A DNA stretch of 64,000 bases from Thiohalorhabdus sp. Cl-TMA. GTDB lineage: Bacteria; Pseudomonadota; Gammaproteobacteria; Thiohalorhabdales; Thiohalorhabdaceae. The stretch spans positions 1-64,000 of the forward strand of contig NZ_JBGUAW010000008.1 in the NCBI RefSeq assembly GCF_041821045.1, written 5' to 3'. The notes beneath the pieces were generated by a model. It was not told where the DNA came from. It was given only the letters and a program-made list of their open reading frames with translations, and ran no database searches. Positions 22,062 to 31,031 of this stretch are shown piece by piece. The first letter of the stretch is position 1; each line of letters begins with the position of its first letter. The position numbers and the translations under genes were made by a program.

Positions 22062-22135
<74 letters not shown>

Positions 22136-22172
22136 TTCTTCCGGCCCGGAGATTCCGGAGCCGCGTTGCCGG

Positions 22173-22248
<76 letters not shown>

Positions 22249-22316
22249 GATACCCGCCCCGAGTCCGCAGGACACGGCGCCCGGAGCGCCGCGGGGCCAT
22301 TTGCGATCGATTCCGT

Positions 22317-22400
22317 GGGACGGTGGCGGAACTGGTAGACGCGCTGGATTTAGGATCCAGTACCTCCGGTGTGCGGGTTCGAGTCCCGCCCGTCCCACCA
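22317..22400 (+). tRNA. tRNA-Leu (TAG)
   Basis: 84 nt with long variable arm (class II). Acceptor GGGACGG/CCGTCCC, discriminator A, encoded CCA; anticodon loop TTTAGGA gives anticodon TAG. Confidence 0.95.
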
Positions 22401-22453
22401 GAGCGCGACTCGCGCGGTGCAGAAGCAGGCAGTAACGGGGAATCCCCCGCACC

Positions 22454-22542
22454 GGAGGGGTGGCCGAGTGGACGAAGGCGCCTGACTCGAAATCAGGTGA
22501 CGGTACTGCCGTCCGGGGGTTCGAATCCCTCCCCCTCCGCCA
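22454..22542 (+). tRNA. tRNA-Ser (CGA)
   Basis: 89 nt with long variable arm. Acceptor GGAGGGG/CCCCTCC, discriminator G, encoded CCA; anticodon loop CTCGAAA gives anticodon CGA. Last gene of the array, followed by a strong terminator. Confidence 0.95.
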
Positions 22543-23086: not shown

Positions 23087-23740
23087 ATGAACAGTACAGC
23101 CCTACAATCCCTTTTTGTCCGCGGTGCGCGCCAAGCCACCGACCCCCGAAGGTCCGTGTCGAGCTCACAGCCGTCCCCCTCCTCCCAACACCACTTCGAG
23201 CACCTCGCAGCCTTGGTCGAGGCATCAGCCCAAGGCGACCAAGACGCCTTTGCCCAGCTCTACGGGGCAACCTCCGCGAAACTGTATGGCTTTGCGCTGC
23301 GTATATTGAAAAACGAAGGCCTGGCTCAGGAATGCTTGCAGGATGCCTACATCCGGATCTGGGAGCACTCGGGTAGCTATCGAAGGACTCGCGGTGCTCC
23401 CTTGACCTGGATGGGAATAATCGTTCGCCGGCGAGCATTGGACATGATCCGTTGCGCCAACCGGGAGCATGTCCTCGATGACCCCGAGGAGCTGTTCCGG
23501 CACAAGGACCAAATGGACCATGCCGAAGGTCCCGAATCGGGGCTGGACTTCAGTGAACGAGAGAGGCTGGCCGCTTGCCTCGGGAAGCTGGGCAGGAACC
23601 AGCAACAAGTTCTGCGTCTGGCATTCTTCGACGGTCTTGCCTATCCCGAGGTAGCGGAACATCTGCAAGCCCCTCTGGGAACGGTCAAGACCTGGATTCG
23701 AGGGGGGATGGAGAAATTAAGAAAGTGCCTGGAAGCCTGA
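23087..23740 (+). CDS. ECF-type RNA polymerase sigma factor (SigK-like)
   Basis: 217 residues. Region 2 (about 50-115: DAFAQLYGATSAKLYGFALRIL...AYIRIWEHS) and region 4 (about 165-215: RNQQQVLRLAFFDGLAYPEVAEH..., then GTVKTWIRGGMEKLR) give the two-domain ECF architecture. An N-terminal Ser-rich extension of about 40 residues precedes region 2. AGGAG stands before ATG 23087. It overlaps the RskA-like anti-sigma gene by 16 nt, so the pair is co-transcribed and coupled. Target promoters are unknown. Confidence 0.93.
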   Translation: MNSTALQSLFVRGARQATDPRRSVSSSQPSPSSQHHFEHLAALVEASAQGDQDAFAQLYGATSAKLYGFALRILKNEGLAQECLQDAYIRIWEHSGSYRRTRGAPLTWMGIIVRRRALDMIRCANREHVLDDPEELFRHKDQMDHAEGPESGLDFSERERLAACLGKLGRNQQQVLRLAFFDGLAYPEVAEHLQAPLGTVKTWIRGGMEKLRKCLEA

Positions 23741-24480
23741 AGGGAGGCAGGCCGGGAGTATACCCATTCCGCTGGAATGCGGAGGCCCGCGAGGTCCTGG
23801 CTGGCGATTACGCCTTGGGTACCCTGCACGGCAAGGCCCGCGTCCGCTTTGAACGGCTCTTGGCGGTAGACGCGGACTTGCGCATCAAGACCCAAAAATG
23901 GGAAGAACGCCTGGCCCCCCTGGCCGAGGAGGCCCATCCGGAGCGGCCCCCCGAGGCCGTCTGGACGCATATCCGCGACCGGCTACCAACATCGGATCCC
24001 TTGCGGCCGGCCGCTCCAGCCGACAAGCCGCGGATTTCACACTGGTGGGATAGCCTGGCGTTTTGGCGCGGCCTGGCGGCCGCCGCCCTCCTACTACTCG
24101 CATTCGTTTCCTGGTCCGGGCTGGGAGTACACCCGGGCTTGGCTCCGGAACGCATCGCAGTGATCAGTAATGCACGACAGGAACCTGTCTGGGTTCTGAG
24201 TACCGGGTCGCCTGCAGGATTGCTGCGCGTGCGGACTGTGCAGGCACCGGGGATGGGCCCGGGACGCGTCTGCCCGCTTTGGCTGCAGTGGGACGGTGGG
24301 AAGGAAGTGCGCAGAATTGCCATTCTTCCCGAAGAGAAGGGGAGCTCTACTTTCCGCATTCCGGAAAATATGCCTTTGGACCGGGCCCGCCTGGCGGTCA
24401 GCGTCGAGCCGGCCGGCGACCTTCCCCAAGAAGGGCCCCGTGGGCGGCTGATTTACCAGGGCAACTGGACCCGACTATAA
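23725..24480 (+). CDS. RskA-family membrane anti-sigma factor
   Basis: 251 residues from GTG 23725. Cytoplasmic N-terminal anti-sigma region (about 18-90, LAGDYALGTLHGKARVRFE...W), a single membrane helix (about 114-134, RGLAAAALLLLAFVSWSGLG) and a periplasmic RskA domain with the family features WVLSTG, LWLQWDGG and LAVSVEPAG near the C terminus. It should hold the preceding sigma factor at the membrane until a periplasmic signal arrives. The periplasmic part contains one Cys only, so redox sensing by a disulfide is unlikely. Confidence 0.9.
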   Translation: MPGSLKGGRPGVYPFRWNAEAREVLAGDYALGTLHGKARVRFERLLAVDADLRIKTQKWEERLAPLAEEAHPERPPEAVWTHIRDRLPTSDPLRPAAPADKPRISHWWDSLAFWRGLAAAALLLLAFVSWSGLGVHPGLAPERIAVISNARQEPVWVLSTGSPAGLLRVRTVQAPGMGPGRVCPLWLQWDGGKEVRRIAILPEEKGSSTFRIPENMPLDRARLAVSVEPAGDLPQEGPRGRLIYQGNWTRL

Positions 24481-24521: not shown

Positions 24522-26474
24522 ATGGTAAGTACCGGTGCCTGGCTGAGGAGGCTCCCTATCCGCCCGAAATTAGCCCTTTTGTCCGGACTTCCGCTGGCTG
24601 CGGTATTACTTCTGGTCCTGACTCAGATCCAGGCCCAGTTGGAAGAAGCGGCACGGGCTCATGCGGTCCAGGATGCCGGGCGTCTTGCCCAGCACTTGCA
24701 CGCGGTGATCCAGACCCACGGGGTTGAACGGGACCAGTCCGTGGGTGTTCTCCAGCAATCGGGAGGCACGGCTTCCCAGGAGCTCCCCACTTCCCGGGAA
24801 AACGCCGATCGCGCCGCCCGCGAGCTGAACACCCTCTTTCGCGAGGGACTTCCCTATTTCGACACCGGTTACTTGAAGGAGCCCATCCACCAACTGCGGC
24901 AGGCATTCCAACGCCGCAGCGAGGTCCGCCATTGGGTGGATAACGGGCGCCACCCCGAAAAAGTGTTTGCCTTTTATTCCGACCTAAACGCCAATGCCCT
25001 GCACATTTTGCGACAGGTAGCAGGCAGGATCGACGAGGCCGCCTTGGCCCGGCAGCTACGCTCCCTATACGGGGTGATCGGCCTGCAGGAACAGGCGGCA
25101 AAGGCCCGCGGCAAGCTTACCGAGGCCTTCGCGGCGGGAGAGACCACCCCGAGTCAATTCCTCGCCATCCGCGGCTTCGCCCGAGCCCAGGACCGTTACC
25201 GGGAAACCTTTTCCCTGAATGCCACTTCGGGCCAACGGGACTTTCTGGAGCGCAACCTACAGGCCGACGCAGTGGAGCGGGTCCGCCAGATTCGAGAAGA
25301 TTTCCTAAACACTTCCAAGGAGGTGGGCTCGGGACCGGAGGCCGATGCCTGGTTCCGCCTTGCCTCGCAGCGCATCAAGCGGATCCAGGAAGTGGCGGAC
25401 CATGTGGCCTCTGAGCTGGCCGCCCAGGCCGACCGGCGGGTAGCCGCGGCCCAGCTGGCCCTTTGGGGGTATTCCGGGTTCGCGGGATTAATCGTGCTGG
25501 CGACCATCGGTCTGGTGGCCGCCGTTGGGCGCAGTATCGTGCGTCCCCTGCAGGATGCGGCGGGAATGACGCAGCGCATCACCCAGTCGGAGCGCTGGGA
25601 CCTGTCTCTCCGCATCGAAGCCAATGGCCGCGACGAGGTCGCCCAACTGGGGCAGGCGTTCAACACCTTCCTGGATGCCCTCCAGGAGGTGGTGGCCACA
25701 TTGGATGACAAGACCCATGACCTTACTCGCGGGCGCTCGAATCTGACCGCAGGAGCCGAGGCCATCGCGGGGGGCGCCAACGAGGCCCGGGAACAGGTGC
25801 AGCAAATGACCACCTCGGCCGAGGAGGTCAACGGCGTTGTCCAAGAGGTGGCCGGCAACATAACGGGTGTATCGGAATCGGCCACCGAAACCGCCCAGAC
25901 CACCCGGCAGGGCAAGCAGGCAGTGGATGAGGCCGCGAACAAGATCCGGGCACTCAGGGAAGCCAGCGGTCGCGCTGATGAGATCCTCAACTCCATCCAG
26001 ACCGTGGCCAAGAAGACCGACTTGCTGGCGCTCAATGCCGCCATCGAGGCCGCAAATGCCGGTGATCAGGGCAAGGGCTTCGCGGTGGTCGCCGACGAGG
26101 TCCGGCAGCTGGCCGAGCAAACCCGTCAGGCCACCGGCCAGGTCGGAAACATTGTCGGCGAGGTCCAGGGGCATTCGAAAGAGTCCGAGGAGGCAATGAA
26201 CCAGGTCCTGGAGCGCATGGATGCCATTCTTGAGCGCGTCAGCGAGATCGATCGCTCCGCCGACCAGATTGCCGCAAGCGCGGAGGAGCTGGCCGCCACC
26301 ATGGGCGAGACCACGGACAACATGCAGGTCATCAGCAACCACACCGACCAGGTGGCCGACCAGGTGGCCGCCATCCAGGGCACGGCCACGGAGATCGGTG
26401 CGCTCGCCGATGAGCTACAGGCCGTTACGACCCGCTTTCGGCCGAAGGAGGGGCCCCAGCCAGCCCATTCTTAG
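24522..26474 (+). CDS. Methyl-accepting chemotaxis protein with NIT-type sensor
   Basis: 650 residues. Membrane helix about 17-36, periplasmic sensor to about 310, second helix about 312-332, HAMP (about 335-390) and a cytoplasmic signalling domain whose hairpin tip includes [20 protein letters not shown] and [16 protein letters not shown]. The sensor contains an ERDQSVG segment and a helical LREL-type arrangement reminiscent of NIT (nitrate/nitrite-sensing) domains; this assignment is moderate. It follows the sigma/anti-sigma pair by 41 nt with GGGAGG before ATG. No che genes are nearby. Ligand could be nitrate or another small anion. Confidence 0.88.
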
Positions 26475-26606: not shown

Positions 26607-28019
26607 ATGCAAGGCCCAATCGCACCGAATGATGCCGTAATGGCGTCCCGATCACGCCAGGAGGGCCAACGCTTGTTGAAACAGGCGTTCGTTACCTATC
26701 GCGGGGACCCGATCGGAACCCTGGCCGCCTCCGATCCCGCGCGTGGGCTTCTCAACTACGATCAGATCTTCGTACGGGATTTCATTCCCGTGGCCTTGTA
26801 CTTCCTGGCTACCGGGGAGCCGGCCTTGGTTCACCGCTTCCTGGAGCGTTGCTGCCAACTGCAGGCCAAGGAGCGCTCCATGGACTGCTATCGCCCGGGT
26901 GCCGGCCTGATTCCCGCCAGCTTCAAGGTAAGCGATGACGGTACCCGACTTGTGCCGGATTATGGAGGCCAGGCCATCGCCCGGATTGCCCCGGTGGATT
27001 CCAGCCTTTGGTGGCTCTACCTGCTGCGGGTCTACACCCGCGCAACCGGCGATCGGGAATTGGCGGCCCGGACCGAGTTTCAGGAGGCCATAAAGCGCGT
27101 CCTCGAGCTATGCCTGATCGGGCGGTTTGACATGTACCCCACCCTGCTCGTCCCCGATGGATCATTCATGGTGGACCGGCGGCTCGGTGTCTACGGATAC
27201 CCCCTGGAAGTCCAGGTACTGTTCTATATGGCTCTGCGCTCCGCCGACGAACTGCTCGGTGACTGCGAGGAGAGCTTGCCCTACCGCGAGGCGGTACGGG
27301 ACCGCCTGGGCAAGCTGATCCATTACGTGCGCACCTATTACTGGCTGGATCTAGCCGCGCTCAACCGCATTTACCGGGCCAGCACCGAGGAATACGGGGT
27401 TGCGGGAAGCAACGCCTTCAACATCTTGCCCGCTTCCATCCCCGACTGGCTACCCGACTGGCTGCCGGAGGAGGGCGGCTACCTGGTTGGGAATTTGGGG
27501 CCTTCGCGGATGGATTTCCGATTCTTTTCCCTGGGTAACCTGTTGGCCGTGATCTCCGGGCTGGCCAACAAAAAACAAGGAGAGGCCATTCTGGCTCTGG
27601 TAACCGCCAAGGCCGACGACCTCGTGGCGGATATGCCACTCAAGCTGTGCTTCCCCGCTCTAGAAGGCCAGGATTGGCGCACCGTCACGGGCAGCGACCC
27701 CAAGAACATTCCCTGGTCCTACCACAATGGGGGCAGCTGGCCGGTACTCCTGTGGATCCTGGCCGCCGCGGGGCTACGTTATGGCCAAACGGCGCTGGCC
27801 CGCTCCGCCCTGGAAAATGCAGCCCCGCGGCTGCAGGCCACGCAATGGCCGGAATATTTCGACAGTCGACGGGGCCGCCTGGTGGGGAAAGAAGCGCGCC
27901 TATATCAGACCTGGACCATCGCCGGGAGCCTGCTGGCTGACCACCTGCTGGCGGAGCCAGCCCTGATGGATGCCATCACCTTCGCCGATAACATTACGGC
28001 CGAGGACTGCACCTTCTGA
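26607..28019 (+). CDS. GH100 alkaline/neutral invertase
   Basis: 470 residues, the normal length of bacterial GH100 enzymes. Conserved segments NYDQIFVRDFIPVALYFLA, GAGLIPASFKV, VDSSLWWLYLLRVYTRATGD, DMYPTLLVPDGSFMVDRRLG, LGPSRMDFRFFSLGNLLAV and PWSYHNGGSWPVLLW are typical. Hydrolyses sucrose to glucose and fructose in the cytoplasm. In cyanobacteria and halotolerant sulfur bacteria the enzyme accompanies sucrose used as osmolyte; no sucrose synthase or phosphatase is in this window. ATG 26607 has GAG upstream; an internal ATG at 26640 is a possible start. Confidence 0.93.
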   Translation: MQGPIAPNDAVMASRSRQEGQRLLKQAFVTYRGDPIGTLAASDPARGLLNYDQIFVRDFIPVALYFLATGEPALVHRFLERCCQLQAKERSMDCYRPGAGLIPASFKVSDDGTRLVPDYGGQAIARIAPVDSSLWWLYLLRVYTRATGDRELAARTEFQEAIKRVLELCLIGRFDMYPTLLVPDGSFMVDRRLGVYGYPLEVQVLFYMALRSADELLGDCEESLPYREAVRDRLGKLIHYVRTYYWLDLAALNRIYRASTEEYGVAGSNAFNILPASIPDWLPDWLPEEGGYLVGNLGPSRMDFRFFSLGNLLAVISGLANKKQGEAILALVTAKADDLVADMPLKLCFPALEGQDWRTVTGSDPKNIPWSYHNGGSWPVLLWILAAAGLRYGQTALARSALENAAPRLQATQWPEYFDSRRGRLVGKEARLYQTWTIAGSLLADHLLAEPALMDAITFADNITAEDCTF

Positions 28020-28381: not shown

Positions 28382-28648
28382 ATGTCCGTCAATTTCAAGA
28401 AAAACACCGCCTACCTAAGCGCCGCTGGCGCTGCCTTCGCGGTCAGCCTGGCCCTTTCCCCCAGCCCGGCCGCAGCCGACAGCGCCAATCCCTTCATGGT
28501 CGCGGACCTCGGAAGCGGCTACTCCGTCGCCGCCGCGGAGGGAAAATGCGGCGAAGGGAAATGCGGGAGCAAGGGTGACGGCAAAGATGACGGCGACAAA
28601 AAAGGCGGGGAAGGCAAATGCGGAGAGGGCAAGTGCGCTAGCGGTTGA
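28382..28648 (+). CDS. HvfA/bufferin-like Cys-rich RiPP metallophore precursor
   Basis: 88 residues. Signal peptide about 1-33 (AAGAAFAVSLALSPSPAAA), then a short linker and a low-complexity C-terminal part with two tandem EGKCGEGKC blocks (Cys56, 61, 80, 85) separated by a Lys/Asp/Gly linker. The EGKCG repeat is the signature of the HvfA family of copper-binding peptides whose cysteines are modified by MNIO (DUF692) enzymes to oxazolone/thioamide. GGAGG precedes ATG. No MNIO (HvfB) or HvfC gene is adjacent; a DoxX/HvfX-like gene follows 179 nt downstream. If the maturases are elsewhere this is an orphan precursor; unmodified it may still bind metal. Confidence 0.85.
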   Translation: MSVNFKKNTAYLSAAGAAFAVSLALSPSPAAADSANPFMVADLGSGYSVAAAEGKCGEGKCGSKGDGKDDGDKKGGEGKCGEGKCASG

Positions 28649-28680
28649 GTCCGCATAGATTCCATAAGGACGAGCTGGGG

Positions 28681-28697
28681 GCGGGCCCTAGGCCCGC
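28681..28697 (+). terminator. Hairpin after the HvfA-like gene
   Basis: Stem GCGGGCC / GGCCCGC with CTA loop, 32 nt after the stop. It lacks a T tract, so it may attenuate rather than stop transcription into the DoxX gene. Confidence 0.4.
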
Positions 28698-28827
28698 TCC
28701 CGGCTAATTAAACGGGTACCTATGGGGCATCCGCACAGTGGAAATTGTATCCCGTTTACCCGGGACACTTTGACGCGGCTTTCGGGAGAGGATGCTCCCC
28801 GGAACGAGAGCACGAGGGACGGAAACA

Positions 28828-29367
28828 ATGGATAAATGGATGGCGCGCATGCTGGGCCTGTACTCCGGCCTTGACCGGGTTGGTGACTACCTGGCCCCGT
28901 TGGGGCTGCGGCTGGTACTGGCCTACGAATTCTGGGAGTCCGGGGTCATGAAGTTCATGGCCAACGGCGCCTTCGGCCCGGCACCCGGATGGTTCGCGGC
29001 TCTTGACTATCCCTTCCCGTTCAACGTGCTTCCCGACGCGCTGAACTGGATCATCGCCATGTGGGCGGAGCTGATCGGCGCGGTCTTGCTGCTTCTGGGC
29101 CTCGCGACCCGTCCGGCTGCTCTGGTACTGATTATTCTGGATCTCGTAGCGTGGGTCAGCGTCCACGCCGGCCACGGGTACAACGTAAGCGACAATGGCT
29201 GGAAGCTGCCCTTGCTGTTCCTGGTCATGTTGCTCCCCTTGCTCCTGAAGGGCGGCGGCAAACTGAGCCTGGATTATCCGATCAGCACCCGGATGAACCG
29301 TTTCTGGAATCGGCGGCCCCGCCACGCCCCGTCTCCCGCCGGGCCCGCGGCCAACCGTCTGGAGTAG
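28828..29367 (+). CDS. DoxX family membrane protein (HvfX-like)
   Basis: 179 residues with four membrane helices (about 22-45, 70-95, 98-118, 128-150). The LAYEFWESGVMKF segment and helix pattern fit DoxX/SURF4-like proteins. DoxX-type proteins called HvfX accompany HvfA metallophore precursors, so I infer that it works with the gene at 28382. ATG 28828 is preceded by GAGGGA. Biochemical function of this family is not established. Confidence 0.85.
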   Translation: MDKWMARMLGLYSGLDRVGDYLAPLGLRLVLAYEFWESGVMKFMANGAFGPAPGWFAALDYPFPFNVLPDALNWIIAMWAELIGAVLLLLGLATRPAALVLIILDLVAWVSVHAGHGYNVSDNGWKLPLLFLVMLLPLLLKGGGKLSLDYPISTRMNRFWNRRPRHAPSPAGPAANRLE

Positions 29368-29411: not shown

Positions 29412-31031
29412 ATGTCCGGTTCCCAACTGCAATCCCTCCCGGCCCTGGCCCGCTTCCCGCAGATCAATCCGGAACCCGTCATGGCGGTCACCACTGACGG
29501 GGAAATTGCGTATGCCAACGAGGCCGCCGCGGTCCTGCTCCGGGGGTGGGACGCCGTCGAGGGCGGCCCCCTGCCCCCTGCTTGGCGCCAGGCCGTATCG
29601 GAAGTAATGGCGGGAGAAGAGGCGGTAGAGCTCAATGCCCCCGTTGCCGATCGTCTGTTCAGCTTCCGCCTGGTCCCGGATATGGAGACCGGCTGTCTGC
29701 ACCTGTATGCCACCGATGACACCGATGCCCACGAAGCCCGCATGCGCCTTCGGCATCTGGCGTATTACGACCTGCTCACCGGCCTGCCCAACCGGACACA
29801 CCTCCTTCAATATCTGGAGCGCACCTGGCCGCACGAGACGGCCACCTCCGCCTTCGCCCTCCTCTACCTGGGGGCCGACCGCTTCAAAAACATCGTTTCC
29901 GGGCTGGGGCATACCCAAGGGGACCGTGTGCTTTCCGCCGTGGCCGAGCGTCTGTCCGGACTGTTCCCCCGAGGGTTCGTGGCACGCGTGCACGGAGACG
30001 AATTTGCCGTGGTGGTTCCCGATATCGCGGATATGAACGCGGCTCGGTCGGAGGCGGCCCGTATCCAGCAGGCCTTTTCCAGCCCCGTGTGCTCCGAGCG
30101 GGCCCCCTTCCCCATTTCCTTGAGCGTCGGCATCGTCCTCGGATGGTCCGGCCGCGACGGTGCGGGGCTACTGCGGGATTCCCACAGCGCCATGGCGCGG
30201 GCCAAGAGCACCGGACCCGGCCGCGAGCGGGTATTCGATGAATCCCTGCAAAAAGCGTTTCGGGACCGCTTGCGGCTGGAGACCGATCTGGGCGCCGCGC
30301 TGGAGGCCGATGGGCAGCTGGTTGTCCATTACCAGCCCATCCTGACCCTGCCAGAGATCCAGCCGGTGGCCGTCGGCTTCGAGGCCCTTGTCCGCTGGAA
30401 CCACCCCGACTTTGGCCGGCTGGGACCGGGGGCTTTCATCGCATTGGCCGAGGATGCGGGCCTGGTGGGGCGCCTGGGCTGGCGGGTGCTGGAACAGGCA
30501 GCGCAACAGGCTGCCGTCTGGAACCGGGGGACCGCCAGTCCCGCCACGGTCAGCGTCAACCTGGCGCCCCAGCAGGTAGTCGAGGCGGGTCTGGTCGAGA
30601 AAGTGGAGACCATCTTGCAGGAGGTGGACTGCGAACCGGCCTGGATCCGCCTGGAGCTCACCGAGTCCGCGCTGGTTGGGGACCCCGACTGGGTTCGGGG
30701 CAACCTGGAAGGTTTGCGGGAAATCGGCTGCAGCCTGAGCATTGACGACTTCGGAACCGGCTATTCCTCCCTGTCGCACCTCCACCGCTTTCCCTTCGAT
30801 ACCCTGAAGGTGGACCGGGCTTTCGTCGTCGACGCCCCCACCCATTCACGCTCCTTTGAGCTTGTACGCGCCATCATGGCCATGTCCGAAAGCCTCGGCC
30901 TGGCTGTGGTGGCGGAGGGCGTAGAGACCGATGAGCAATTGGAGCTCGTCCGTGGCGCCGGGGCCGCATACGTCCAGGGTTTCCGGTTCGCCCCCGCCCT
31001 GCCCGCACCCGAGGCCGAAGCCTGGCTGTAG
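29412..31031 (+). CDS. PAS-GGDEF-EAL c-di-GMP signalling protein
   Basis: 539 residues, no membrane segment. N-terminal PAS-like domain (about 15-105, PEPVMAVTTDGEIAYANEAAA), GGDEF domain (about 118-280) and EAL domain (about 290-535). The GGDEF motif reads HGDEF with an unusual first residue, so cyclase activity is doubtful; it may bind GTP and regulate. The EAL part keeps EALVRW, NLAPQQ, ELTESAL, DDFGTGYSSL and EGVET, so phosphodiesterase activity is likely. It lowers c-di-GMP, favouring motility over attachment. Convergent with the AraC gene. Confidence 0.92.
   Translation: MSGSQLQSLPALARFPQINPEPVMAVTTDGEIAYANEAAAVLLRGWDAVEGGPLPPAWRQAVSEVMAGEEAVELNAPVADRLFSFRLVPDMETGCLHLYATDDTDAHEARMRLRHLAYYDLLTGLPNRTHLLQYLERTWPHETATSAFALLYLGADRFKNIVSGLGHTQGDRVLSAVAERLSGLFPRGFVARVHGDEFAVVVPDIADMNAARSEAARIQQAFSSPVCSERAPFPISLSVGIVLGWSGRDGAGLLRDSHSAMARAKSTGPGRERVFDESLQKAFRDRLRLETDLGAALEADGQLVVHYQPILTLPEIQPVAVGFEALVRWNHPDFGRLGPGAFIALAEDAGLVGRLGWRVLEQAAQQAAVWNRGTASPATVSVNLAPQQVVEAGLVEKVETILQEVDCEPAWIRLELTESALVGDPDWVRGNLEGLREIGCSLSIDDFGTGYSSLSHLHRFPFDTLKVDRAFVVDAPTHSRSFELVRAIMAMSESLGLAVVAEGVETDEQLELVRGAGAAYVQGFRFAPALPAPEAEAWL

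Follow-up and report, generated by a model that had tools for sequence, protein, structure and literature searches.

HvfX/GigT-type DoxX proteins are the uncharacterized fourth component of very widespread copper-peptide clusters, and a locus in which such a protein is encoded beside a peptide precursor with no maturation enzyme nearby raises the question of where the peptide would be modified and what HvfX would do for it. A pair of this kind, hvfA2-hvfX, lies in the 64,000-nucleotide stretch of contig C8 of Thiohalorhabdus sp. Cl-TMA that was analyzed here as a whole (the window); the assembly comprises 3.74 Mb and is 99.2% complete. A preliminary description had presented the pair as an orphan, i.e., a precursor with HvfX and without an MNIO maturase, and had offered two options: maturation in trans by a distant enzyme, or function with unmodified cysteines.

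Both genes were what that description had taken them for, as their products exceeded the cut-offs of NF050137 ('KCGExKCG_twice') and NF050144 ('HvfX family'), respectively (see table). HvfA2 (88 aa, MSVNFKKNTAYLSAAGAAFAVSLALSPSPAAADSANPFMVADLGSGYSVAAAEGKCGEGKCGSKGDGKDDGDKKGGEGKCGEGKCASG) has a GGAGG approximately 8 nt 5' of its start, a Sec-type signal peptide (hydrophobic residues 14-25) with the motif NPF-x4-L-x2-GY-x2-A after it, and two EGKCGEGKC repeats containing four cysteines. Its score against the HvfA equivalog model NF050188 was 25.3 bits, below the cut-off of 95, and we therefore regard this protein, with just two repeat blocks, as an EGKCG-family precursor and not as a strict HvfA equivalog. 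A genome-wide search for DNA coding for EGKCGEGKC returned four sites, of which hvfA2 accounts for two, while the reversed pattern, used as a control, gave no match. The entire hvfA2-hvfX spacer folded at -79.9 kcal/mol (z -3.9 vs. shuffles), and its stem-loop is probably a message-end stabilizer or a partial terminator; a strong stem-loop was also present 3' of hvfA in almost every other hvfA-hvfX pair examined, as would be expected if the output of the precursor far exceeds that of HvfX.

Table. Features annotated in and around the hvfA2-hvfX pair (window coordinates)
Feature	Position	Strand	Description
ECF-type sigma factor	23089..23740	+	Sigma70_r2 50.6 bits, Sigma70_r4_2 41.6 bits
RskA-type anti-sigma factor	23725..24480 (start codon not fixed)	+	RskA_C 46.1 bits
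NIT-HAMP-MCP chemoreceptor	24522..26474	+	Pfam; between ECF/RskA pair and hvfA2
GH100 alkaline/neutral invertase	26607..28019	+	Pfam Glyco_hydro_100 642.8 bits; directly 5' of hvfA2
hvfA2	28382..28648	+	EGKCG-type precursor; NF050137 29.7 bits (cut-off 19.5)
Stem-loop	28673..28705	+	15-bp stem; between hvfA2 and hvfX; no T-run
hvfX	28828..29367	+	DoxX-type integral membrane protein, 179 aa; NF050144 117.7 bits (cut-off 80)
GGDEF-EAL protein	29412..31031	+	Pfam; 44 bp 3' of hvfX

Membership of the DoxX gene in another DoxX subgroup was ruled out, since its product passed the HvfX cut-off; it also matched Pfam DoxX (1.3e-17), and hvfX is the sole intact copy in the genome and its sole full match above that cut-off. 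Among the residues invariant across loci with hvfA and hvfX, with hvfX alone, and with hvfABCX (hereafter A-X, X, and A-B-C-X), the window HvfX keeps R28, E34, G39, K42, W55, F56, P64, W74, W79, E81, and G91, and further T94, R95, A108, H113, G117, Y118, G142, G144, S147, and D149; four positions that are invariant or nearly so in its relatives are substituted (G45A, N54G, F61Y, and T78M). Cysteine occurs at none of the well-conserved positions of the HvfX alignment, making it less likely that HvfX itself carries out thiol-disulfide chemistry. The model of the window protein had a mean pLDDT of 85.5; a fold search with it returned nothing at E < 1 (NACHO/TMEM35A and vitamin K-dependent carboxylase had the top probabilities but were non-significant), and a PDB sequence search using an HvfX profile gave no matches. 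On the HvfX tree the branch of the window HvfX measured 1.06 (median 0.17), and its placement is unsure.

Profile searches detected neither MNIO (DUF692, as the preliminary description had it) nor DUF2063 in the window, and an overlooked maturase was ruled out, the only MNIO (C7:265067-265852, 339 bits) and the only DUF2063 (85 bits, adjoining it) of the genome being located on contig C7. There they belong to an hvfA1-hvfB-hvfC operon (C7:264.2-266.2 kb; both enzymes confirmed by Pfam), in which the gene directly 5' of hvfB encodes another precursor, HvfA1 (112 aa, four Cys), and near which no hvfX was found. If an MNIO with a DUF2063 partner is taken to define an hvf cluster, the window locus is not one and the genome as a whole has one. 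The pair is thus an orphan at its locus but not genome-wide: the window precursor is not the only one, the notion of an hvf system without a maturase did not hold, and hvfBC with its own hvfA elsewhere, part of what had been named as evidence against the preliminary description, is what the genome-wide search for MNIO and HvfC (one of each) returned. Of the two options offered, the evidence now favors maturation in trans, and since the second cluster lacks hvfX, the window pair does isolate HvfX, as had been suggested. The genome represents a natural experiment with two precursors, one maturase pair, and one HvfX. Aligned with each other, HvfA2 and HvfA1 have the post-signal motif and a C-terminal KKGGEGKCGEGKCAS in common, with four cysteines each. 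A same-genus genome (99% complete) kept hvfA1BC in the absence of HvfX, so that the maturation operon can be retained without X.

The oxazolone/thioamide modification initially assumed is outdated, as that of oxazolin is now assigned to 5-thiooxazoles (PMC13097082, PMC13419390). FonBC and HvfBC require nothing beyond a precursor that has its leader and no fewer than two repeats; the related FonBC also tolerates Ala following Cys and accepts DGKCG (PMC13097082), and the leader of HvfA is its signal peptide (PMC13419390). Given these tolerances and a signal peptide as leader, HvfA2, in which KCA places Ala after Cys, agrees with what is known of FonBC/HvfBC substrates, and modification in trans is therefore the simplest reading. 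With moderate confidence we favor a split hvf system, in which HvfBC modifies HvfA2 in trans and the ECF/RskA-linked A-X pair is an envelope output module where HvfX serves the mature peptide. For this envelope half of an hvf (oxazolin/captophorin) system, we infer maturation in trans, control by the ECF/RskA pair, and a role for HvfX along the following lines. Stress would be sensed by the RskA-type anti-sigma factor, which would free the ECF sigma factor and switch on hvfA2 and hvfX; HvfA2 would be synthesized in the cytoplasm, where its cysteines would be converted to copper-binding 5-thiooxazoles by HvfB-HvfC of the hvfA1BC operon before Sec export; and HvfX, a quinone-oxidoreductase-like DoxX protein, would act in the envelope with the mature copper-loaded peptide, e.g., in electron transfer or the handling of bound Cu(I), and not in cysteine modification. 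The gigPABT operon (Cupriavidus, Legionella; DUF2282 bufferin) likewise combines a periplasmic peptide with a DoxX-like protein, GigT, and has an ECF sigma and an anti-sigma factor beside it, although its precursor belongs to the DUF2282 family and its maturases lie within the operon; GigP-GigT was proposed to oxidize periplasmic Cu(I) into the quinol pool (PMC10304878), and quinol-linked Cu(I) oxidation would, by analogy, be a role for HvfX that fits the A-X linkage.

The separation of A-X from A-B-C recurs in other sulfur-oxidizing bacteria, which points to HvfX as a likely partner of the finished peptide rather than of the enzymes. In several of 56 genomes sampled around that of the window (e.g., G004, G005, G011, G012, and G034), an HvfX above the cut-off and an MNIO were located on separate contigs, with an A-X pair present in G004. 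A collection of 84,980 species was then scanned with an alignment of the short type of HvfX, and the 80 best loci comprised 34 with A, B, C, and X, five B-C-X, two C-X (at contig ends), 14 A-X, and 25 with X alone; two of the 34 (L076 and L080) have an A-X pair beside a separate maturase cluster. Around four A-X loci (L094, L096, L098, and L121) approximately 8 kb on either side were free of maturases, and some other A-X loci stop near a contig edge. An MNIO was found elsewhere in 10 of the 14 A-X genomes, and its flanks (~ 1.5 kb) were read in nine: five showed A-B-C without X (L158, L164, L165, L167, and L168), and in the other four, with or without DUF2063, neither X nor A was detected within that distance (no A within ~ 1.5 kb in the flanks L157, L150, L153, L155, and L176). 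The A-X label needed seven changes when mapped on the HvfX tree, at least three of them forced by well-supported branches, with labels that depend on how far each contig extends; within the 80 related HvfX loci, A-X pairs with no maturase nearby would accordingly have at least three separate origins. Such repeated separation of A with X from A with maturases parts the maturation step from the role of HvfX. ECF/RskA lay within 5.6 kb of X at 22 of the 48 loci that have hvfA vs. 1 of the 25 with X alone (p 1.5e-4, uncorrected for relatedness); ECF-RskA pairs stand upstream of the complete A-B-C-X clusters L106, L113, and L142, and RskA upstream of the A-X pair in L117. The rule that X always follows A was rejected, given the 25 loci with no detectable neighboring precursor; X is thus not tied to an adjacent precursor, which counts against the split-system reading. 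Precursors were detected by their repeat pattern, and divergent ones near lone-X or B-C-X loci could therefore escape.

It could also be argued that HvfA2 and HvfX operate with unmodified cysteines, as a small periplasmic thiol peptide and a DoxX redox protein that do not depend on HvfBC. In four of the 14 A-X genomes (three of them interrelated), no MNIO or DUF2063 was detected; all four are metagenome-assembled genomes of unknown completeness, so that these maturase-free pairs are a lead and not a result. The precursors of L096, L117, and L121 lack the L-x2-GY-x2-A motif kept by most maturase-linked precursors (rough p 0.004, from a hand count in which the three sequences are related). The tree places L096 next to L121 as its sister and joins L117 to L113, whose precursor motif is also altered; L117 has A-X near argG and its close relative L113 A-B-C-X near the same argG, as if B-C had been lost. 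Among 40 genomes around that of L121 (completeness not given), MNIO was absent from 11. For the window pair, we nevertheless consider function with unmodified cysteines unlikely, as its genome has HvfBC and HvfA2 has lost neither the motif nor the pairing of its EGKCG repeats; in addition, a published survey found an MNIO in 97% of the complete genomes that encode EGKCG precursors (67 of 2583 without; PMC12452194). The broader proposal, that A-X is a free-standing functional unit able to work with unmodified cysteines, and that, alongside split genomes with maturation in trans, L096, L117, L121, and perhaps the window genome keep A-X after loss of the maturases, with the leader motif lost, is likewise doubtful, if anything slightly more so.

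The ECF sigma factor of the window is the probable regulator of the hvfA2-hvfX locus, although the MCP and invertase genes intervene between the ECF/RskA genes and hvfA2 and a motif for an ECF promoter was not identified; a sigma-70 promoter scan upstream of hvfA2 returned no site. A second A-X place in the genome is in ruins (C7:112.0-112.4 kb): all that is left is a EGKCGEGKCANT end and, after it, HvfX pieces broken over three frames (61%, 43%, and 50% identical), which rules out a third intact hvfA on C7. Each of the two places is preceded by an ECF sigma and RskA-type anti-sigma pair (at the ruin, L007 10783-9483, minus strand). The two RskA genes, 44-45% identical, are the sole matches in the genome, and the homologue of the window ECF sigma factor at the decayed locus scored 215 bits. 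A GGDEF-EAL gene follows both places as well, which we rejected as proof of duplication: the protein next to hvfX has 42 matches in this genome, making the adjacency weak evidence, and the two are not closest paralogues. A duplication is better supported by the RskA pair, and the window locus probably descended from an ECF-RskA-A-B-C-X cluster after loss of B-C.

The long HvfX branch, the changed positions, and the decayed second A-X mean that the window pair could be drifting. At the extreme it would be a functionless remnant of such a cluster minus B-C, as the clear ruin on C7, the fast evolution of the window HvfX, and the same-genus genome without any HvfX might suggest, but this is improbable considering that many genomes keep A-X pairs and that neither window gene is damaged: both have ribosome-binding sites, hvfA2 still encodes the signal peptide, motif, and repeats, and the invariant residues of HvfX are in place. 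A role of HvfX in maturation or export, aiding HvfBC in trans for both precursors and with an incidental linkage to hvfA2, would agree with the NCBI family name 'Cu-binding RiPP maturation protein' and with the clustering of X with A-B-C in 34 of 80 loci but is very unlikely, as experiments in E. coli or in vitro showed full modification of the precursors by HvfBC and FonBC without HvfX (PMC13097082, PMC13419390) and the same-genus genome has A1BC and no X.

The split system inferred here resembles hvfABCX of Haemophilus influenzae (oxazolin) in its EGKCG-repeat precursor with a signal peptide and its HvfX-family DoxX protein, and differs from it in that hvfB-hvfC is not beside the pair but in another operon, which includes a precursor gene of its own and no hvfX. 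With the captophorins (fontiphorin, FonABC) it has the EGKCG precursor and the expected 5-thiooxazole chemistry in common, whereas the Fon maturases are encoded beside their precursor (PMC13097082). Passages of the Buf_EGKCG/oxazolin survey report that precursors can stand alone and that the four core genes occur in 'various combinations', including precursors unlinked to MNIO for which an MNIO at another locus was suggested as the modifier (PMC12452194, Microb Genom 2025), and the basic idea is therefore not new. The recurrent split between A-X and A-B-C within genomes, its ECF/RskA setting, and the decayed paralogue are new, and the same passages do not describe them. Counting clusters by MNIO proximity misses precursors likely modified in trans.

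Several minor observations concern gene neighborhoods. Four tRNA genes (Gly, Gly, Leu, and Ser; window 22062-22542) lie just 5' of the ECF gene and are a possible insertion site, and the 42 GGDEF-EAL matches constitute a rich cyclic-di-GMP set for a 3.7 Mb genome. Sugar genes occur at both A-X places, the GH100 invertase in the window and two kinases at the ruin (glucokinase-like and PfkB-type, L007 8460-9446 and 10885-11805, named by sequence inspection only); together they would form a sucrose pathway divided between two loci. ECF genes, often of another type, stand 5' of hvfA in many relatives. Lone HvfX proteins fall into several separate clades (L072, L093, and L102; L104, L118, L124, L128, and L148; L120, L125, and L127). 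One hvfABCX locus, L132 (JAHREJ010000007.1), titled Bacillus subtilis SK7B5, grouped with Stenotrophomonas on the HvfX tree, and its assembly is probably mislabeled or contaminated. In Thiobacillus-type genomes (L158, L159, L160, L164, L165, and L179), the precursor on the hvfBC side often carries an EF-hand-like insert between its EGKCG motifs, and the precursor on the hvfX side is without it.
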